Below, one piece after another: positions 5,425 to 15,177 of a stretch of DNA of 34,834 nt (position 1 is its first letter; each line of letters opens with the position of its first letter). The notes beneath the pieces were generated by a model that searched no databases, was not told where the DNA came from, and saw only the letters and a list, made by a program, of their open reading frames with translations. The DNA lies in assembly GCA_903893135.1 (NCBI GenBank), contig CAITLA010000171.1, positions 1 to 34,834 on the forward strand. The letters are read 5' to 3'. The translations under genes and the position numbers were made by a program. The stretch is from an uncultured Syntrophaceae bacterium (GTDB lineage Bacteria; Desulfobacterota; Syntrophia; Syntrophales; UBA2185).

Positions 5425-5433
5425 TGCTATAAT
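5425..5433 (+). promoter_or_regulatory. Extended -10 promoter of the response regulator
   Basis: TGCTATAAT is a perfect extended -10 element (TG-N-TATAAT), about 29 bases before the regulator ATG. No convincing -35 lies 16-18 bases upstream, as is common for extended -10 promoters. This suggests the regulator is made from a housekeeping promoter, separate from the sigma-54 promoter behind it. Confidence 0.5.
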
Positions 5434-5461: not shown

Positions 5462-6814
5462 ATGATGGAAAAGTCCGAGTCACCCTTAAACATACTGATT
5501 GTCGATGACGAGCTGAACATTCGCAAGACCCTCTCGGTCTGCCTGGAGACGGAGGGACACAGGGTTGTCGCTGTCAGTAATTACGAGGATGCCCTTTCTG
5601 AAAACGCCCGCCGTTCCTTTGACGTGGCTTTTGTGGACCTGCGTCTCGGGACACAGAGCGGTCTCGACCTCATCCCTGCGCTTCTTTCCGGATCACCATG
5701 GCTGAAGATCATCGTCATCACGGCCTACGCATCAATCGAGACGGCCGTACAAGCAATAAAGCGGGGCGCTTCGGATTATATCCCGAAACCATTTACTCCT
5801 TCCCAGGTAAAACTTTGCATAGGGAAGGTTGCAGAGGTCCGTTCCCTGGAGCAGCGTGTTGACGCCCTACAGGCGGATCTGAGCCGCATCAACCCCGAAG
5901 TGGACCTCAGCACAACAAGTCCCATCATGCAGCGGGCCATCGAACTTGCAAAGCAGGTGGCCCCGACGGACGCCATCGTCCTTCTCACAGGAGAGAACGG
6001 AACCGGGAAAAGCATTCTTGCCCGGGCAATCCATGGATGGAGCAAACGGGCAAATAAGCCTTTCGCAGAGATCTCATGCCCCGTACTTTCCGCGGAGCTT
6101 CTGGAGAGTGAGCTTTTCGGGCATGTGAAAGGGGCCTTTACAGGTGCCGTACGAGATCATCTGGGCCGGATCGCCTTCTGTGAAGGAGGGACGCTATTCC
6201 TCGACGAGATCGGTGATCTTCCGCTGTCGGTTCAGCCAAAGCTTTTAAGGTTCATCCAGGAAAGGGAATACGAACGTCTGGGCGATCATGTGACCCGGAA
6301 GGCGGATGTCCGCCTGATTGCGGCGACCAATATGGATCTGGAAGAAGCCTCCAGGAATAATCGTTTCCGCGAAGACCTCTTCTATCGGCTGAATGTTATC
6401 CAGATAGAGATCCCGCCTCTCCGGGAACGGCCCGATGATGTCTTGGGCCTCGCCCGGAGACTGCTCATCTTCTTTGGGAGAAGTCATCACTGTGCTCATC
6501 AGCGCTTCAGCGACGAGGCGCTGCAGGCGCTCCGCCGTTATTCCTGGCCGGGAAATGTGCGTGAGCTGCGAAATGTAATCGAACGAGCCTCCATACTCTG
6601 CAGGTCGGAGTTGGTCGGAGTCGAATATCTGCCGGAAAAGCTCCTTACTGCCGAAGACCGTCCCAAGCCCGGGGACCCTGTTTCTCTCGACAAAATAGAG
6701 GAGATGCACATCCGGCGCGTCCTTGCTTCTGCGAAATCATTGCAGGAAGCCGCCGATATCCTCGGCGTTGATCAGGCAACCCTCTGGCGTCGTCGCAAAC
6801 GTTATAACATCTGA
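5462..6814 (+). CDS. Sigma-54-dependent response regulator (NtrC family), likely Kdp regulator
   Basis: A 450-residue enhancer-binding protein. Receiver domain, residues about 8-125: acidic pair D15/D16, phosphoacceptor D59 in FVDLRLG, T88 and K109. AAA+ domain, about 150-390: Walker A GENGTGKS (177-184), the sigma-54 contact loop GAFTGA (224-229), Walker B GGTLFLDEIGD (242-252). C-terminal Fis-type helix-turn-helix, about 425-450, ending ATLWRRRKRYNI. Such proteins oligomerise on upstream sites and use ATP to open RpoN-polymerase complexes. A sigma-54 promoter and two dyads lie 40-150 bases downstream, before the kinase and kdp genes; the inferred role is activation of that operon. Two ATGs (5462, 5465) share a weak GGAAG site. 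E. coli instead uses the OmpR-type KdpE, so the gene is not named kdpE. Confidence 0.92.
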   Translation: MMEKSESPLNILIVDDELNIRKTLSVCLETEGHRVVAVSNYEDALSENARRSFDVAFVDLRLGTQSGLDLIPALLSGSPWLKIIVITAYASIETAVQAIKRGASDYIPKPFTPSQVKLCIGKVAEVRSLEQRVDALQADLSRINPEVDLSTTSPIMQRAIELAKQVAPTDAIVLLTGENGTGKSILARAIHGWSKRANKPFAEISCPVLSAELLESELFGHVKGAFTGAVRDHLGRIAFCEGGTLFLDEIGDLPLSVQPKLLRFIQEREYERLGDHVTRKADVRLIAATNMDLEEASRNNRFREDLFYRLNVIQIEIPPLRERPDDVLGLARRLLIFFGRSHHCAHQRFSDEALQALRRYSWPGNVRELRNVIERASILCRSELVGVEYLPEKLLTAEDRPKPGDPVSLDKIEEMHIRRVLASAKSLQEAADILGVDQATLWRRRKRYNI

Positions 6815-6854
6815 AGAGCGTACTTCTCTCCCCCATTTCCCTTCCGAAGACCAA

Positions 6855-6867
6855 TTGCACTTTGCAA
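6855..6867. promoter_or_regulatory. Upstream activator dyad 1 (TTGCA-N3-TGCAA)
   Basis: TTGCACTTTGCAA is a perfect dyad with a 3-base centre at 6861, about 115 bases before the inferred sigma-54 start. It matches the second dyad at 6887-6899. Position and symmetry suit an NtrC-type enhancer site for the regulator encoded just upstream. Confidence 0.55.
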
Positions 6868-6886
6868 GACATGTATTGCCTTCTTC

Positions 6887-6899
6887 TTGCTAAGTGCAA
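6887..6899. promoter_or_regulatory. Upstream activator dyad 2 (TTGCT-N3-TGCAA)
   Basis: TTGCTAAGTGCAA repeats the first dyad with one imperfect base pair. Its centre at 6893 is 32 bp from the first, about three helical turns, so two dimers would lie on the same DNA face. Seen as a long inverted repeat, 6855-6868 and 6886-6899 match at 13 of 14 positions. Confidence 0.55.
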
Positions 6900-6949
6900 G
6901 GCACACAGGACTCCAAGAGTTTAAATACCCCGATAATTGCAGTATTTTT

Positions 6950-6965
6950 TGGCATGCCGGTTGCT
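6950..6965 (+). promoter_or_regulatory. Sigma-54 (RpoN) promoter of the kinase-kdp operon
   Basis: TGGCATGCCGGTTGCT matches the consensus TGGCACG-N4-TTGCW at every fixed position but one. The invariant GG (6951-6952) and GC (6963-6964) have the required 10-base spacing. The inferred start site near 6976 leaves a leader of only about 16 bases, containing the kinase ribosome binding site (AGAAGGAG, about 6978-6984). Confidence 0.8.
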
Positions 6966-6991
6966 ATAGAAGCAACAGAAGGAGAGAAAAT

Positions 6992-8842
6992 ATGTTCAGC
7001 TTAAGACAGAAATTATTTCTCGGGTTCGGAGGTCTGCTTCTGATCATTGCATTGACCGGCATACAAAGCGTCAGCAAAGTGACGGATCTGGGCTATGCAA
7101 TCGATGTCATTCTCAAGGAGAATTATCAGAGCGTACTCGCCTGTCAGAAAATGAAGGAATCCTTAGAGAGGATGGATAGCGGATCCCTTTTCATCTTGTC
7201 CGGCTATGAGAAGGAGGGAAGAGAAGCCATTGACGGGAATCTTCCGGAGTTCGACAAGGCACTAATGATAGAATTGAACAATATCACACTCCCCGGCGAA
7301 GGTGAGAGCGCAGCCCATCTTCAGGAACTTTTTGCAAGATATAAAGCCACGATTGAAGGCCTGGAAGACAGGAACACTACCCGCGACAGGCGGCAAGATA
7401 TTTATTTTTCTCAGCTCTTCCCCTTGTTTCGGAACATCAAGGACACGGCGGATCAGATCCTCAACATGAATCAGAAAAACATGTACGACGCCAACGAAAT
7501 TGCGCGCCACAAGGCGGCGAAGGCGCGCGAACAGATGTATTTTCTCCTGATTCTTGGCGCTGTCTTGGCCATCGCCTACGTATTCCTAATTGGCAAATGG
7601 ATCCTCCGCCCGATTGAACGTTTGACGCAGTCTGCTGAGGAGATCAAACGAGGTAATCTGGATCTCATAGTTAAGACCGATACCCGTGATGAAATAGGGC
7701 GACTTTCAGAGGCATTCAACGCGATGGCTGCAAGTCTTCGGGAAGTCCGCCGCAGTGATGAAGCAAAACTTGTCAGGATTCAGCACTCGACACAGCAGAC
7801 ATTCGATAATCTTCCGGATGCCGTGGCAATTCTCGACTTGGAGGGAAAGGTGGAGATGGCAACGGAAACAGCCGGAAATATCTTCGGACTGAAGCGCAAT
7901 ATCCAGATTGAAAGCATACCTTTCAGATGGATAACCGATCTATACAGAAATGCCCTTAAAGAAGGCGATCACGCCTCGTCGAAAGAAGACGCGACAGCTG
8001 TTGTACAGCACTTCGTCAACGCGGAGGAGCATTTCTTCCGGCCGATGACCGCCCCTATCTTGAATAATAGAAGGGAGCTTATCGGCATAATCCTTATCCT
8101 CAAGGACGTCACGGATCAACTGGAGCAAGACGAACTAAAAAAAGGCGTCATTTCTACGGTCTCACATCAGTTGAAAACGCCTCTTACGTCCATTCGCATG
8201 GCCATTCATCTCCTCCTCGATGAAAAGGTCGGGCCCCTTACTCCCAAGCAGCAAGAACTCTTGATTGCGGCCCGGGAAGATAGCGAGCGCCTTCACAAGA
8301 TCCTTGATAATCTGCTTGATATCAGCCGTATAGTATCCGGCAAAATGGCTATGGAGTTTCATGCGGTCCCGTCTCAGCAAATCATCTCGGAGACTGTTGA
8401 ATCTTTCCGGGGAGCGGCCCTCGGCTACGGTGTGAAAATTCACACAATACTGCCCGGTGACCTGCCCGAGGTCTGGGCTGATACGATGCGGATCGGGCAT
8501 GTTTTCGCCAACCTCCTGTCTAATGCCCTGAAGTACACCGCCTCCGGTGACACAGTGACTGTAACCGCACAGGTTGATGAACAACAGGTTGAGTTCTCCG
8601 TTTCGGATACCGGTAAGGGAATACCCGAGCAGTATCTCTCCAGGATCTTCGATCCATTCTTTCGTGTTCCGGGGCAGGAAGCTGATACGGGCACCGGCCT
8701 GGGGCTTTCCATAGTCAAAGAAATTGTCGAGGCACACGGAGGATCTGTCACCGTAAAAAGCCGCACTGGTGAAGGAACAACTTTTTCTTTTAAGCTTGGA
8801 AGGGCCGATAAAATTGCGGCGGATGCGAGCGACAGGCCATGA
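6992..8842 (+). CDS. HAMP-PAS sensor histidine kinase of the kdp locus
   Basis: A 616-residue inner-membrane kinase. Membrane helix 1 about 8-25 (LFLGFGGLLLIIALTG), extracytoplasmic sensor domain to about 188, helix 2 about 190-212, HAMP about 212-265 (RPIERLTQSAEEIKRGNL), PAS-like region about 280-380, then the H-box VSHQLKTPLTS with phosphorylated His392. The ATPase boxes follow: NLLSNALKY, DTGKGIP and GTGLGLSI. The frame is open from 6887, but the ATG at 6992 is chosen because it has AGAAGGAG upstream and the sigma-54 promoter lies inside the longer version. It should phosphorylate the regulator at 5462-6814. The sensor domain resembles neither KdpD input domain, so the signal (potassium, turgor or other) is unknown. 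Its stop overlaps the next small gene. Confidence 0.9.
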   Translation: MFSLRQKLFLGFGGLLLIIALTGIQSVSKVTDLGYAIDVILKENYQSVLACQKMKESLERMDSGSLFILSGYEKEGREAIDGNLPEFDKALMIELNNITLPGEGESAAHLQELFARYKATIEGLEDRNTTRDRRQDIYFSQLFPLFRNIKDTADQILNMNQKNMYDANEIARHKAAKAREQMYFLLILGAVLAIAYVFLIGKWILRPIERLTQSAEEIKRGNLDLIVKTDTRDEIGRLSEAFNAMAASLREVRRSDEAKLVRIQHSTQQTFDNLPDAVAILDLEGKVEMATETAGNIFGLKRNIQIESIPFRWITDLYRNALKEGDHASSKEDATAVVQHFVNAEEHFFRPMTAPILNNRRELIGIILILKDVTDQLEQDELKKGVISTVSHQLKTPLTSIRMAIHLLLDEKVGPLTPKQQELLIAAREDSERLHKILDNLLDISRIVSGKMAMEFHAVPSQQIISETVESFRGAALGYGVKIHTILPGDLPEVWADTMRIGHVFANLLSNALKYTASGDTVTVTAQVDEQQVEFSVSDTGKGIPEQYLSRIFDPFFRVPGQEADTGTGLGLSIVKEIVEAHGGSVTVKSRTGEGTTFSFKLGRADKIAADASDRP

Positions 8843-8922
8843 TTGATCTAATCTATATTACAACTGCCATCGTTTTTTTTGGAATTTGTGTTTTTTACGC
8901 ACGACTTTGCGGGAGGCTTTAG
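8839..8922 (+). CDS. 27-residue single-helix membrane peptide upstream of kdpF
   Basis: A complete small frame, ATG at 8839 to TAG at 8920-8922, encoding MIDLIYITTAIVFFGICVFY followed by ARLCGRL. It is one hydrophobic helix with a basic tail. The ATG overlaps the kinase stop by four bases (ATGA), the classical sign of translational coupling, and kdpF begins three bases after its stop. From memory, similar tiny frames ending in a basic R-x-C-x-x-L tail lie before kdpF in other genomes, usually unannotated. It may be an extra subunit or assembly factor of the Kdp pump. Composition, coupling and position support it; function is inferred. Confidence 0.65.
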   Translation: MIDLIYITTAIVFFGICVFYARLCGRL

Positions 8923-8925
8923 GGT

Positions 8926-9009
8926 ATGGTTGATATCATTGTTCTTATGATCGGATTGTTTCTGATCGTCTATCTCTTTTTTGTAATACTTCGTCCTGAA
9001 AAATTTTAA
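8926..9009 (+). CDS. kdpF: KdpF, small subunit of the potassium-transporting ATPase
   Basis: A 27-residue peptide, MVDIIVLMIGLFLIVYLFFV then ILRPEKF, ending in the RPEKF tail typical of KdpF. KdpF is a single-helix subunit that stabilises the KdpABC complex in the inner membrane. GGGAGG at 8911-8916 lies nine bases before the ATG. It sits between the 27-residue peptide and kdpA, its normal place at the head of kdpABC. It is short enough to be missed by automatic gene calling. Confidence 0.9.
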   Translation: MVDIIVLMIGLFLIVYLFFVILRPEKF

Positions 9010-9055: not shown

Positions 9056-10858
9056 ATGAACATTTATGGCTGGATTCAATTGCTCATATTTATTGGCCTC
9101 CTGTTCTTACTAACAAAGCCGATAGGGGTTTATCTAACGCAGGTCCTGGATCCTCAGGGCAAGACCTTTCTCGACCCTGTGCTTCGCCCTATCGAAGGGT
9201 TGTTTTATCGACTTTTCAGACTGGACACCAAAAAGGAACAGGCCTGGCAGGAATATACCATATCTCTTCTTGTCTTCAGTCTGGTCGGGCTTTTGTTGAC
9301 CTATGTTATCCTCCGAATTCAGCATCTCCTGCCTCTGAATCCCCAGGGGTTCGGACCGGTCTCCGAGCACTTGGCCTTTAATACGGCGGCCAGTTTCACG
9401 ACCAATACGAACTGGCAAAGCTATGGTGGAGAGTCCACCCTCTCTTATCTTTCACAGATGGTCAGCCTCGTTATCCATAACTTCACCTCCGCAGCCGTCG
9501 GAATCGCAGTAGCTGCGGCCTTCGTGAGAGGTATCGCCCGGCATTCGGCTCGTACCATCGGCAATTTCTGGATCGATCTTGTCCGCGTCAATCTTTATCT
9601 GCTATTGCCGATTTCCCTTGTCTATGCCCTGTTCCTCGTTTCCCAGGGAATGATCCAGAATTTCAAGCCTTACGATACAGCGCAACTTCTGGAAACTGCC
9701 GTCATTCAGGTTCCCACGAAGGATGCCGCCGGTCAGGAAATCATTGATACTCAGGGAAAACCGGTAATGGAGGAGCATAAAGTTGCAACACAAACGATAG
9801 CGCAGGGTCCAGCAGCATCCCAGGTGGCGATCAAGATGCTGGGAACCAACGGGGGGGGATTCTTTAATGCCAATGCCTCTCACCCATTTGAGAACCCGAC
9901 ACCTCTATCCAACTTTTTGCAGATCCTTTCCATATTTCTTATTCCGAGCGGTCTCACGTATTATCTGGGCCGGATGGTCAAAAACCAGCGGCACGGATGG
10001 ACCGTTTGGGGAGTGATGCTTGCGCTTTTCGTGGCAGGAGTTCTGACATGCTGGTGGTCGGAAGCAGCGGGAAACCCCAGAATGCATGCCCTGGGCGTTG
10101 ATGCCGCCGGAGGGAATATGGAGGGCAAGGAGGGTCGTTTCGGCATATTCGGCTCTGCCCTCTTCGCCACTGTGACTACGGATGCCTCATGCGGAGCTGT
10201 CAACGCGATGCATGATTCCTTCACACCACTGGGCGGCTTGATCCCGCTCTTCAATATTCAGCTGGGGGAAGTCGTCTTCGGCGGCGTGGGAGCCGGGCTT
10301 TACGGGATGCTTGTTTTTGTCATCCTGACTGTGTTTCTGGCGGGACTGATGGTCGGGCGTACTCCCGAGTATCTCGGCAAGAAAATCGAAGCCTATGACG
10401 TGAAGGCCAGTGTATTATACGTGATGGTGCCCGTTTTTTCCGTCCTGGGATTCACCGCCTGGGCCGCGGTGAGCGAGTGGGGCCTGGCCGGCCTCAATAA
10501 TGCCGGCCCTCATGGTTTTAGCGAAATACTTTATGCATTCTCATCTGCCGTGGGCAATAACGGGAGCGCCTTCGCCGGGCTCAGTACCAATACTTACTGG
10601 TACAATACGACACTCGGCATTGCCATGCTTCTGGGCCGTTTTTTCATGATCGTCCCAGTGCTGGCCTTAGCCGGCAGCCTGGCGCAAAAGAAGCAGGTTG
10701 CTCTGAGCGGCGGCACTTTCCCTGTGTCCGGGGTTCTCTTTGCCCTGCTTGTGCTTGGTACCATTCTCATTGTTGGCGCCCTGACGTTCCTGCCGGTACT
10801 TGCGCTGGGCCCCATTGTGGAACATTTCTTAATGGCGGGATCACAAATTCTCTATTGA
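9056..10858 (+). CDS. kdpA: Potassium-transporting ATPase subunit A (channel-like subunit)
   Basis: A 600-residue integral membrane protein, slightly longer than E. coli KdpA. It forms the potassium-selective path of the Kdp pump. The four pore-loop motifs are visible: TNTNWQSYGGE near residue 116, GTNGGGFFNANASHPFENPT near 263, TDASCGAVNAMHDSFTPLGG near 375, and GNNGSAFAGLS near 500. A hydrophilic insertion (about 215-245) precedes the second motif. GGAGAAG lies five bases before the ATG. kdpB follows after 12 bases. High-affinity uptake at low external potassium is the established family role. Confidence 0.97.
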   Translation: MNIYGWIQLLIFIGLLFLLTKPIGVYLTQVLDPQGKTFLDPVLRPIEGLFYRLFRLDTKKEQAWQEYTISLLVFSLVGLLLTYVILRIQHLLPLNPQGFGPVSEHLAFNTAASFTTNTNWQSYGGESTLSYLSQMVSLVIHNFTSAAVGIAVAAAFVRGIARHSARTIGNFWIDLVRVNLYLLLPISLVYALFLVSQGMIQNFKPYDTAQLLETAVIQVPTKDAAGQEIIDTQGKPVMEEHKVATQTIAQGPAASQVAIKMLGTNGGGFFNANASHPFENPTPLSNFLQILSIFLIPSGLTYYLGRMVKNQRHGWTVWGVMLALFVAGVLTCWWSEAAGNPRMHALGVDAAGGNMEGKEGRFGIFGSALFATVTTDASCGAVNAMHDSFTPLGGLIPLFNIQLGEVVFGGVGAGLYGMLVFVILTVFLAGLMVGRTPEYLGKKIEAYDVKASVLYVMVPVFSVLGFTAWAAVSEWGLAGLNNAGPHGFSEILYAFSSAVGNNGSAFAGLSTNTYWYNTTLGIAMLLGRFFMIVPVLALAGSLAQKKQVALSGGTFPVSGVLFALLVLGTILIVGALTFLPVLALGPIVEHFLMAGSQILY

Positions 10859-10870
10859 GGGACAAAGCTG

Positions 10871-12892
10871 ATGGCTGTCAAGGCACGTTCTATCTTTGAT
10901 CGGGAAATTATATCGCAGGCAGTAGTTCACGCCGTGAAGAAAATGAACCCGGTCAACATGATCAAAAATCCGGTCATGTTCGTCACCGAGGCTGGGGCAT
11001 TCATTGTGAGCGCCGGGCTCTTTTTCCGGCCGGCGACTGAAAATCTTGGTTTCAGCATACAGATCGCCCTGTGGCTCTGGTTCACCGTATACTTCGCCAA
11101 TTTCGCGGAGGCCATGGCCGAAGGCAGAGGCAGGGCGCAGGCGAATGCTCTGCGCAAGACGCGGACACATACGATAGCCAATCGTATCCGTACCGATGGC
11201 TCTGTGGAGAAAATTCCTGCCGACCAATTGCGAAAGGGAGAGATGTTTTTCGTCGCCGCAGGTGAAATAATACCTGCCGACGGAGAAATAACCGAGGGGG
11301 TCGCCACGGTTGATGAATCGGCCATTACAGGGGAGTCGGCGCCCGTAATCAGAGAGGCCGGCGGTGACCGAAGCGCCGTTACCGGGGGAACAAAAGTCCT
11401 GTCGGATTGGATCAGAGTCCGTGTGACGGCAAACCCCGGCGAGAGTTTTTTGGACCGCATGATCGGACTCGTTGAAGGAGCCAGACGCCAGAAGACGCCA
11501 AACGAGATAGCCCTCACGATCCTCCTTGCGGCCCTGACCATTATCTTCCTCGTTGTCATTATGACGCTGAAATTCTACGGGCTCCATTCAGGAATATCGT
11601 TTTCTGTCACTGTGCTGGTCGCACTGCTTGTCTGCCTGATTCCCACGACCATCGGCGGCCTTTTGAGCGCCATCGGCATAGCGGGCATTGACCGAATGGT
11701 GCAGAGGAATGTCCTCGCTATGAGCGGCCGTGCAGTTGAGGCCGCAGGCGATGTGGACGTGCTGCTCCTCGACAAGACGGGAACAATCACTCTTGGCGAC
11801 CGTCAGGCTACTGAATTCATTCCCGCCCCGGGCGTCACAGTGGACGAATTGGCTGATGCGGCACAGTTGTCCTCACTTGCCGATGAGACGCCTGAGGGGA
11901 GAAGCATAGTCGTTCTGGCAAAGAAATATGGGCTCAGGGGCCGTTCGATTACAGACATGCCCCAGGCAAAATTCATCAATTTCACGGCGCAAACGCGCAT
12001 GAGCGGCATCGATTTGGAAGGCCGCCAAATCCGGAAGGGCTCAACGGATGTCATGCAGGCGCTTGTTGGAGGGCACTTTTCCGTGGAGGTTCACAATGCC
12101 ATCAGCCGGATCTCCCAGTCGGGCGGCACGCCTCTGGTCGTCGCTGCCGGCAAGCGTGTTCTGGGTGTCGTCCATCTAAAGGATATCGTGAAAGGGGGTC
12201 TCAGAGACCGGTTTGAACGATTCCGGGCAATGGGAATCAAGACCGTAATGATCACAGGAGACAACCAGCTGACAGCCGCCGCTATTGCGAAGGAGGCAGG
12301 AGTGGACGACTTCATCGCCGAAGCCCGGCCCGAAGATAAGCTGGCGCTGATTCGAAAGGAACAGGCGAAAGGACACCTTGTTGCCATGACCGGTGACGGC
12401 ACAAATGACGCACCCGCCCTTGCACAGGCCGACGTGGGGGTTGCCATGAATACGGGTACGCAGGCAGCGAAGGAAGCAGGCAATATGGTGGATCTTGATT
12501 CCAACCCCACGAAACTGATCGAGGTCGTTGAAATTGGAAAGCAGATGCTCATCACGCGGGGAGCGCTCACGACCTTCAGCATCGCCAATGACGTAGCCAA
12601 ATACTTCGCCATCATTCCGGCCATGATTGTCGGCTCGTTTCCGGTTATTGACCCTTTGAACATCATGCGGCTTCAATCTCCGGCGAGCGCCATCCTGAGC
12701 GCCGTAATTTTCAACGCGCTCATCATTATTGCCCTTATTCCTTTGGCGCTTAGGGGAGTGAAATTCCGGCCTGTCGGTGCCGCTTCAATGCTGAAGCGCA
12801 ATATTCTCATCTACGGCTTGGGAGGCATCATAGCACCTTTCCCCGGAATCAAAGTAATAGATATCATTGTTAACGCCCTTCATCTCGCTTGA
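10871..12892 (+). CDS. kdpB: Potassium-transporting ATPase subunit B (P-type ATPase)
   Basis: The 673-residue catalytic subunit; it hydrolyses ATP to drive potassium import through KdpA. Seen in order: N-terminal helices, the actuator-domain TGES (153-156), the phosphorylation motif DKTGTIT with Asp301, the nucleotide-binding domain, [10 protein letters not shown], and the hinge [21 protein letters not shown] region, then C-terminal helices. The length is normal and all catalytic motifs are intact. GAGG overlapping the kdpA stop serves as ribosome binding site. kdpC starts 17 bases after its stop. Confidence 0.97.
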
Positions 12893-12909
12893 AGGGGGGT
12901 TTTGCAACC

Positions 12910-13491
12910 ATGAAGAATCTGTTCAAAGAAATCCGCATCTCCCTCGCAGCCACCCTGCTTCTGGCGATACTTTTATGCGGTATTTACCCGGCCCTGGTCT
13001 GGGTGGCGGCACAGGCCATTTTCCATAACGAGGCAAACGGGTCACTCATCATCAAGAACGGCCGCATTGTGGGATCAAGCCTTCTGGCGCAGAGATTTAC
13101 CGGCGCAAAATATTTTCATGCCAGACCATCGGCGGCAGGCGCCGGTTACGATGCAGCCAACTCCGGCGGCAGCAACCTCGGCCCTCTTTCAAAGAAGCTG
13201 ATTGACGACACAGGGCAGCGTGTCCGCGACTACCGTGCAGAGAACAACCTTCCTCCCGAAGCCACGGTACCCGCAGATGCGGTGACTGCGTCGGGAAGCG
13301 GCCTTGACCCACATATCGGCTTGGAGAATGCAGTGATTCAGGCAGCCCGTGTTGCCCATGCGCGAGGACTGGGTGAGGAAAGCGTGCGCAGCAAGATCGC
13401 GGCCCGTACGGAAGGGCGCACTCTGGGAATATTCGGTGAACCCCGGGTGAACGTCCTGCTCTTAAACCTGGATCTGGATGGGGGTAAATAA
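12910..13491 (+). CDS. kdpC: Potassium-transporting ATPase subunit C
   Basis: A 193-residue protein with one N-terminal membrane helix (about 9-32) and a periplasmic domain. KdpC binds KdpA and is needed for pump assembly and function. Family motifs: FHARPSAAGAGYDAANSGGSN about 73-93, and a later ASGSGLDPHIG. The start is the ATG at 12910 with AAGGGGGG about ten bases upstream; an in-frame TTG at 12889 overlaps the kdpB stop and is less likely. The kdpD-like gene begins three bases after its stop. Confidence 0.95.
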   Translation: MKNLFKEIRISLAATLLLAILLCGIYPALVWVAAQAIFHNEANGSLIIKNGRIVGSSLLAQRFTGAKYFHARPSAAGAGYDAANSGGSNLGPLSKKLIDDTGQRVRDYRAENNLPPEATVPADAVTASGSGLDPHIGLENAVIQAARVAHARGLGEESVRSKIAARTEGRTLGIFGEPRVNVLLLNLDLDGGK

Positions 13492-13494
13492 AAT

Positions 13495-15177
13495 ATGCCC
13501 GTTGAGAATCGCGCAGATGCTTTCTTGAGGATGATCCGCAGGTCCCAGCGCGGCCACCTGAAGATATACCTCGGATATGCCGCCGGCGTGGGTAAGACCT
13601 ACCGAATGCTCCAAGAAGCGCACCAGCTCAAGGACGAGGGGATCGACGTGGTCGTGGGGCTTGTGGAAACACACGGGCGGGTCGACGTCGCCAAGCTTCT
13701 CGAAGGTCTGGAAATTATCCCCAGGCGGAGGCAGGAATACCGCGGGATTATCGTTGAGGAGATGGACGTTGATGCCATTCTGGCCCGGAAACCACAGATT
13801 GTCCTCGTCGATGAACTGGCGCACACCAACGTGCCGGGCAGCCGGAATGAAAAAAGGTACCAGGATGTCCAGGACATACTTGCACAGGGGATTCACGTCA
13901 TCAGTACCCTGAACATCCAGCATCTGGAAAGCCTCTACGATGTAGTAGAGAAGGCGTCCGGTGTCAGGGTCCATGAACGGCTTCCTGATGCCGTCCTCGC
14001 CGAAGCGGACCAGATCGTGAATGTCGATTTGACCACAGAGGACCTCAGTGAACGTCTCAAAGAAGGAAAAATATATCCTCTCGAACGCATCGAGACGGCC
14101 CTGGCAAATTTCTTTAGAAAATCGAACCTGGAGCAGCTCCGAGAGCTTACCTTACGTGAACTGGCTTCACAGATTGACCAGCGATCCCGTGATGAACTGG
14201 AAGAGGAGGTTCCGGCTACTCCCGATCAGGCAATGGTGTGTCTAAGCTCAAAAGGTCAGAACAGCGAAAAACTGCTCCGTTACGCTTCGCGGCTGGCCGG
14301 ACGGCTTAATAGAAACTGGTACGCCGTCTATGTTCAGACGCCGTCGGAGGCGCCGACTGCCATTGATGCGCAGACACAGCGCATTCTTTCGGGGACGCTA
14401 ACACTTGCCAAGCAGCTTGGAGCCATCGTCTTTACCTTCAAGGGAGATGATATAGTCAAGACCATTCTTCAGTTTGCCAGGGAATACAGGGTCGGTCACA
14501 TTGTAATCGGAAGCCCGAGAAAAATTTCCTTCTGGAAGCAAATGATGGGCGAGCGCAGTGTCGCCGAACGCCTGATCCGCGATGCCAGGGGTGTAACGGT
14601 CGTTGTCCTTGACACGCAGAAACCCGATGTAGTTGCTCCTCTCCCGGTTGAGGAAAAAATCACACAGGAGGAGAATGTCCCTGCAACACGTGAAGCAGAG
14701 GACGGTCGCACACGTTTAACTCAATTCATAACCCGGGGCATGATTGTCATCTGGGAAACGCCCATCACAAAAGATGATTTACTCAGAAGCCTCTCAGATG
14801 CCGCCTGTGAAAACGGAAGCGAAGAGAAATTGAAGGGCCTTAATGCAATCATGGAAAGAGAAGAACAAGGGTCGACATTCTTCAACGAAGGCGTGGCCTT
14901 CCCCCATGCAAGGATTGAGGGACTTAAACGCTCATGCGTGGCCATTGGCTTGACACACGGCGGTCTGTCCGACGTGGTGACGGAAAAGCCCATCGAATGT
15001 GCTTTTTTGATTTTTTCACCGGCGGACATTCCCGATGAACAGATCCAAATACTGGGACTTGCCAGCAAAGCCGCCTTGGACAGGCAGCTCATGGAGACCT
15101 TGCGGTCGGCGAGAACCCCTGACGAGGCCTTTCAGGCCATTCGGGCATGGGAAATTGCGGACCGAACCGGAGCGTAA
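13495..15177 (+). CDS. kdpD: Kinase-less KdpD: KdpD N-domain, USP and PTS EIIA fusion
   Basis: A 560-residue cytoplasmic protein. Residues about 18-225 are the KdpD N-terminal domain: Walker A GYAAGVGKT (27-35) and Walker B LVDELAHTN (104-112). Residues about 245-375 are a universal-stress-protein domain. The four membrane helices and kinase core of E. coli KdpD are absent. Instead residues about 405-555 form a PTS EIIA type 2 (mannitol/Ntr) domain with GVAFPHAR, in which His471 is the expected phosphorylation site. EIIA-Ntr is known to bind KdpD in E. coli, so the fusion may join nitrogen-PTS status to potassium uptake. It could act on the separate kinase at 6992-8842; this is inference. Truncated KdpD proteins are known elsewhere. 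The ATG follows kdpC by three bases. Confidence 0.9.
   Translation: MPVENRADAFLRMIRRSQRGHLKIYLGYAAGVGKTYRMLQEAHQLKDEGIDVVVGLVETHGRVDVAKLLEGLEIIPRRRQEYRGIIVEEMDVDAILARKPQIVLVDELAHTNVPGSRNEKRYQDVQDILAQGIHVISTLNIQHLESLYDVVEKASGVRVHERLPDAVLAEADQIVNVDLTTEDLSERLKEGKIYPLERIETALANFFRKSNLEQLRELTLRELASQIDQRSRDELEEEVPATPDQAMVCLSSKGQNSEKLLRYASRLAGRLNRNWYAVYVQTPSEAPTAIDAQTQRILSGTLTLAKQLGAIVFTFKGDDIVKTILQFAREYRVGHIVIGSPRKISFWKQMMGERSVAERLIRDARGVTVVVLDTQKPDVVAPLPVEEKITQEENVPATREAEDGRTRLTQFITRGMIVIWETPITKDDLLRSLSDAACENGSEEKLKGLNAIMEREEQGSTFFNEGVAFPHARIEGLKRSCVAIGLTHGGLSDVVTEKPIECAFLIFSPADIPDEQIQILGLASKAALDRQLMETLRSARTPDEAFQAIRAWEIADRTGA

Follow-up and report, generated by a model that had tools for sequence, protein, structure and literature searches.

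Putative sigma-54 control region, with a conserved pair of dyads, before a kinase-kdp operon of an uncultured Syntrophaceae bacterium

Regulation of the potassium importer KdpFABC is usually told as the work of KdpD and KdpE with sigma-70. In the window analysed here, a stretch of 34,834 nucleotides from an uncultured Syntrophaceae bacterium, the kdp genes lie behind the gene of a membrane histidine kinase, which is itself preceded by the gene of an NtrC-type response regulator. This arrangement raises the question of which promoter serves the kinase and the kdp genes, and whether the neighbouring regulator acts on it. A preliminary description of the locus had proposed a sigma-54 promoter with paired activator sites in front of the kinase gene. 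The genome is a 2.96-Mb draft in 313 contigs, and among named genomes the closest to it are metagenome-assembled genomes of Syntrophaceae from a fen.

Genes of the locus and the region between regulator and kinase

The presumed activator is encoded at 5462-6814 (+ strand). Its product matches the Pfam families Response_reg, Sigma54_activat, AAA_lid_14 and HTH_8 and thus has the receiver, the sigma-54 AAA+ domain with a GAFTGA loop and the Fis-type helix-turn-helix of an NtrC-type sigma-54 activator. The GAFTGA loop contacts sigma-54. The translation contains VKGAFTGA, in agreement with the preliminary description, and rpoN is present in the genome (PF04552, E 7.6e-65). An extended -10-like sequence, TGCTATAAT (5425-5433), was considered as the regulator gene's own promoter and rejected; it is kept in the nearest relative only.

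The next gene (6992-8842, + strand) encodes a membrane histidine kinase with HAMP, PAS, HisKA and HATPase domains assigned by Pfam. This protein includes a membrane sensor region but no KdpD domain. Its stop codon TGA overlaps the ATG of a small open reading frame (8839-8922, + strand; ATGA), as is likewise the case in many relatives. This reading frame sits between the kinase gene and kdpF and encodes a membrane peptide of 27 amino acids, MIDLIYITTAIVFFGICVFYARLCGRL, for which neither Pfam nor NCBIfam gave a match; similar peptides, ending in ERL or ERI, occur in about 25 orthologous loci. The genes kdpF (8926-9009; TIGR02115 over the cut-off, PF09604), kdpA (9056-10858; TIGR00680, 724 bits), kdpB (10871-12892; TIGR01497, 1050 bits) and kdpC (12907-13491; TIGR00681, 203 bits) follow contiguously on the + strand, all of them over their family cut-offs. 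The last gene (13495-15177, + strand) encodes a protein that joins a KdpD sensor domain to Usp and PTS EIIA domains (PF02702, PF00582 and PF00359), here called KdpD'-Usp-EIIA, without a kinase domain; in 39 of 49 relatives the alignment extends through the EIIA part. The genome gives no match to DUF4118, which forms the membrane domain of full-length KdpD, and the control genomes do give matches to it. Since the open reading frames follow one another closely or overlap, and no internal promoter was found between the kinase and the kdp genes, the genes from the kinase through KdpD'-Usp-EIIA are likely to form one transcript. This is the simplest reading of the gene layout, and it places the kinase first in the operon, as had been suggested. 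The regulator gene lies upstream of the operon and outside it.

The gap between the regulator and kinase genes contains the sequence TGGCATGCCGGTTGCT (6950-6965, + strand), a -24/-12 element that matches TGGCAYN5TTGCW without mismatch and departs at one position from TGGCAC; it thus has the GG-N10-GC arrangement close to TGGCAC-N5-TTGCW that is expected of a sigma-54 promoter. It stands 42 nt before the kinase start, and transcription would begin near 6976. Further upstream lie two presumed activator sites, neither assigned to a strand. Site 1, TTGCACTTTGCAA (6855-6867), is recognised by its motif and by its conservation in register, and site 2, TTGCTAAGTGCAA (6887-6899), by its motif, spacing and uniqueness. 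Both are perfect TTGCN5GCAA dyads, their starts are 32 bp apart, and their centres lie about 115 and 83 bp from the predicted transcript start, so that the geometry given in the preliminary description holds.

These elements are rare. On both strands of the window only two exact sigma-54 sites were found, against 0.09 expected from shuffles, and TTGCACTTTGCAA and TTGCTAAGTGCAA are its only two perfect TTGCN5GCAA sequences. When the 177-nt gap was shuffled 20,000 times with preservation of dinucleotides, the promoter arose 5 times, and the spaced pair and the combination of both never arose. In the whole genome, the pair at 6855-6899 is the single perfect one with 17-21 nt between the dyads, and all other matches to a dyad pair in the 32-bp register carry at least two mismatches. 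The second exact sigma-54 site of the window, TGGCACTTATCTTGCT (1497-1512, - strand), has no evident gene start close downstream.

Conservation of the control region and neighbours of the regulator clade

Conservation of dyads and promoter in orthologous loci had been named beforehand as one of the points on which the proposal could fail. Relatives, named genome contigs and the phylum were the sources of the orthologous GAFTGA regulators; copies of more than 90% identity were dropped, and the remaining 94 downstream regions were scored. A pair was counted when two dyads stood 31-33 bp apart with no more than three of sixteen positions mismatched, and a promoter when GG-N10-GC lay 40-120 bp beyond the pair. 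The pair is kept in 73 of the 94 loci, where 1.14 were expected from shuffles, and pair and promoter together in 53 of 94 (0.02 expected). The dyads are spaced by 31, 32 and 33 bp in 19, 50 and 4 loci, respectively, and the promoter is located 39-50 nt before the kinase start in most loci. The titles of the records with pair and promoter include deltaproteobacteria, Aminicenantes, Acidobacteria, Hydrogenedentes, Verrucomicrobia, Lentisphaeria and Latescibacterota; most of these records are metagenome-assembled genomes, and some lineage labels may be wrong. No pair was found in 32 regions around paralogous regulators or in 42 kinase-kdpA gaps of the same operons, both of which served as controls, and a sigma-54-like site was seen in one of these 42 gaps alone, with two mismatches. 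A recognisable pair is lacking in 21 of the 94 loci, including those of kdp-linked paralogs of Chlorobi and of the most distant members.

Between the start of the second dyad and the -24 element lie either 63-68 or 74-78 bp, and distances of 58, 87 and 97 bp occur once each. These values look like a helical-turn periodicity (Rayleigh p about 1e-12). On the regulator tree the two main distance classes need only two changes, so relatedness largely explains this signal, and helical phasing is suggestive rather than proven.

In a tree built from 88 of these regulators together with 16 paralogs, the two groups part with full support. The transporter beside the regulators of this clade varies, Kdp being the neighbour in most loci. 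Chlorobi often have in its place a permease that matches the potassium importer KimA (PDB 6s3k, E 2.7e-66) and in L105 (11490-13568) and L065 (11479-13518) is encoded between the regulator and the kinase; the dyad pair of the Chlorobi KimA loci is located just upstream of the permease gene. Kup adjoins clade regulators in two loci, one of them L146 (10802-12766), TrkH and TrkA are encoded beyond the kinase gene in L142 (1929-3299), with similar proteins in L154, and NhaD follows the regulator in L150 (6073-7359). Automatic scoring misses Chlorobi loci because their -12 element is off consensus, reading TTGA instead of GC by eye in the KimA loci and TTTGT by eye in the kdp-linked paralogs L080, L082, L092 and L098, and because the operator that follows the regulator gene in these paralogs is a variant, TTGAATTTTGCAC with GTGCAATTTACAC. 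The variant possibly reflects divergence of the operator after duplication.

These neighbourhoods suggest that the regulator-kinase pair may be a general sigma-54 controller of K+ import across many phyla, in which a portable operator of two TTGCA-N3-TGCAA dyads about 32 bp apart is kept while the importer behind it changes between KdpFABC, KimA, Kup and Trk types, and in which the kinase-first layout would give a built-in amplification of the sensor. We consider this wider proposal slightly better than an even bet.

Proposed activation of the operon and competing explanations

Because the promoter and the dyads exceed chance expectation and are conserved, and the pair is absent in the controls, control of the kinase and the kdp genes by RpoN and the upstream regulator is supported. 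We propose that the gap between the two genes is a dedicated sigma-54 control region from which the regulator would switch on the kinase and kdp genes, and we give this reading, which is drawn from sequence, a probability of roughly 0.87. When K+ is short, the membrane kinase would phosphorylate the regulator. The phosphorylated regulator would bind both TTGCA-N3-TGCAA dyads, about three helical turns apart, and then oligomerise, and the ring of its AAA+ domains would remodel RNA polymerase with sigma-54 at TGGCAT-N5-TTGCT, 50-60 bp downstream, so that the promoter opens. One transcript from near 6976 would then cover the kinase, the 27-amino-acid peptide, kdpF, kdpA, kdpB, kdpC and KdpD'-Usp-EIIA, the last of which is perhaps a cytoplasmic sensor alongside the kinase. 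The positive feedback proposed in the preliminary description is plausible, since the kinase gene is inside the operon and more kinase would strengthen the response; however, the regulator is not part of the loop, which would act on the sensor side only, and the sign of the feedback would depend on whether kinase or phosphatase action prevails.

Transcription of the kinase and kdp genes could also come chiefly from sigma-70 promoters of their own or from read-through out of the regulator gene, with the sigma-54 site of minor importance. The regulator and kinase genes are indeed co-directional, with a gap of less than 200 nt in which no strong terminator was found. However, a scan of 6814-7000 for the sigma-70 consensus, which a weak promoter could escape, gave no site, no conserved promoter or operator was found between kinase and kdpA, and the sigma-54 region is strongly conserved, which makes this explanation the least probable of those considered. 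Hardly more credible is a real sigma-54 promoter whose dyads bind another protein, such as a repressor or an architectural protein, while the adjacent regulator acts elsewhere. The tie between dyads and regulator is itself predicted from sequence, and a few loci carry promoter-like sites but no clear pair, as this explanation would allow. Against it, the pair travels with the regulator clade, paralogous regulators have none beside them, it stays by the regulator where KimA replaces the kinase downstream, and it exists in a single copy in the genome. Two dyads upstream of a -24/-12 site are, moreover, the usual layout for sigma-54 activators.

An alternative of more weight, although still improbable, accepts the control region as described and replaces K+ limitation as such by another signal, namely turgor, Na+ or some other stress under which K+ has to be taken up. 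It would fit the one clade member beside NhaD and the kinase's own sensor region without a KdpD domain, and several regulators are known to target kdp in D. vulgaris (PMC3333781). The clade's neighbours are, however, K+ importers of several families, and the operon itself encodes a KdpD sensor domain, both of which favour K+ limitation as the signal to which the proposed sigma-54 control region would respond.

Comparison with known systems

The expectation that RpoN control would set this locus apart from the wiring of E. coli is supported as far as sigma-54 control is concerned, but such wiring has a precedent and is known in kind from one sulfate reducer. In D. vulgaris Hildenborough, target mapping assigned to the GAFTGA response regulator DVU3334 the kdpFABC operon to which it belongs itself; there, too, one gene encodes the histidine kinase and another the KdpD sensor, which comes with UspA (PMC3333781). 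The sigma-54 regulome lists DVU3339.1-DVU3337 under DVU3334 with the function potassium uptake, and the only organisms for which it names orthologs are D. vulgaris Miyazaki and S. fumaroxidans (PMC4641369). Going by the published descriptions, DVU3334/DVU3335-kdpFABC resembles the present locus in its GAFTGA regulator, its kdpFABC genes listed under sigma-54 and its separate genes for a KdpD-Usp sensor and a kinase. It differs in that the regulator is reported inside the operon that it controls (DVU3334-3339), whereas here it is upstream and outside; in the present locus, furthermore, the operon opens with the kinase gene, and an EIIA domain is part of the sensor protein.

A literature search of incomplete coverage found sigma-54 control of kdp only in the D. 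vulgaris work and no description of a wide spread, of a paired operator or of a link to KimA, Kup or Trk. Within that coverage, the breadth of the system, its fixed paired operator and the presence of same-clade regulators beside KimA, Kup, TrkH/A and NhaD appear to be new. These data point to a second way of regulating Kdp, through sigma-54, that is widespread, and the portable operator with the exchange of K+ importers behind it is the more interesting part. The operator appears precise enough for targets to be predicted from sequence. The locus also allows a test of split K+ sensing, in which the membrane kinase is one protein and the KdpD sensor, joined to PTS EIIA, another.

The KdpD/KdpE system of E. 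coli shares with this locus the two-component control of kdpFABC and the presence of a KdpD sensor domain. KdpE belongs to the OmpR type and works with sigma-70, whereas the regulator adjacent to kdp here is NtrC-type and not of the OmpR/KdpE type. Unlike the full-length KdpD with DUF4118, the KdpD part found here has no kinase domain. In E. coli, the EIIA-type protein PtsN acts on KdpD as a protein of its own. NtrC and other sigma-54 enhancer-binding response regulators are alike in the receiver, AAA+ and Fis-type helix-turn-helix domains and in the paired dyads upstream of -24/-12. What sets the present regulator apart from them is a clade separate from the 16 paralogs tested, a distinct operator sequence that occurs as a pair only once in the genome, and its K+ importer neighbours.
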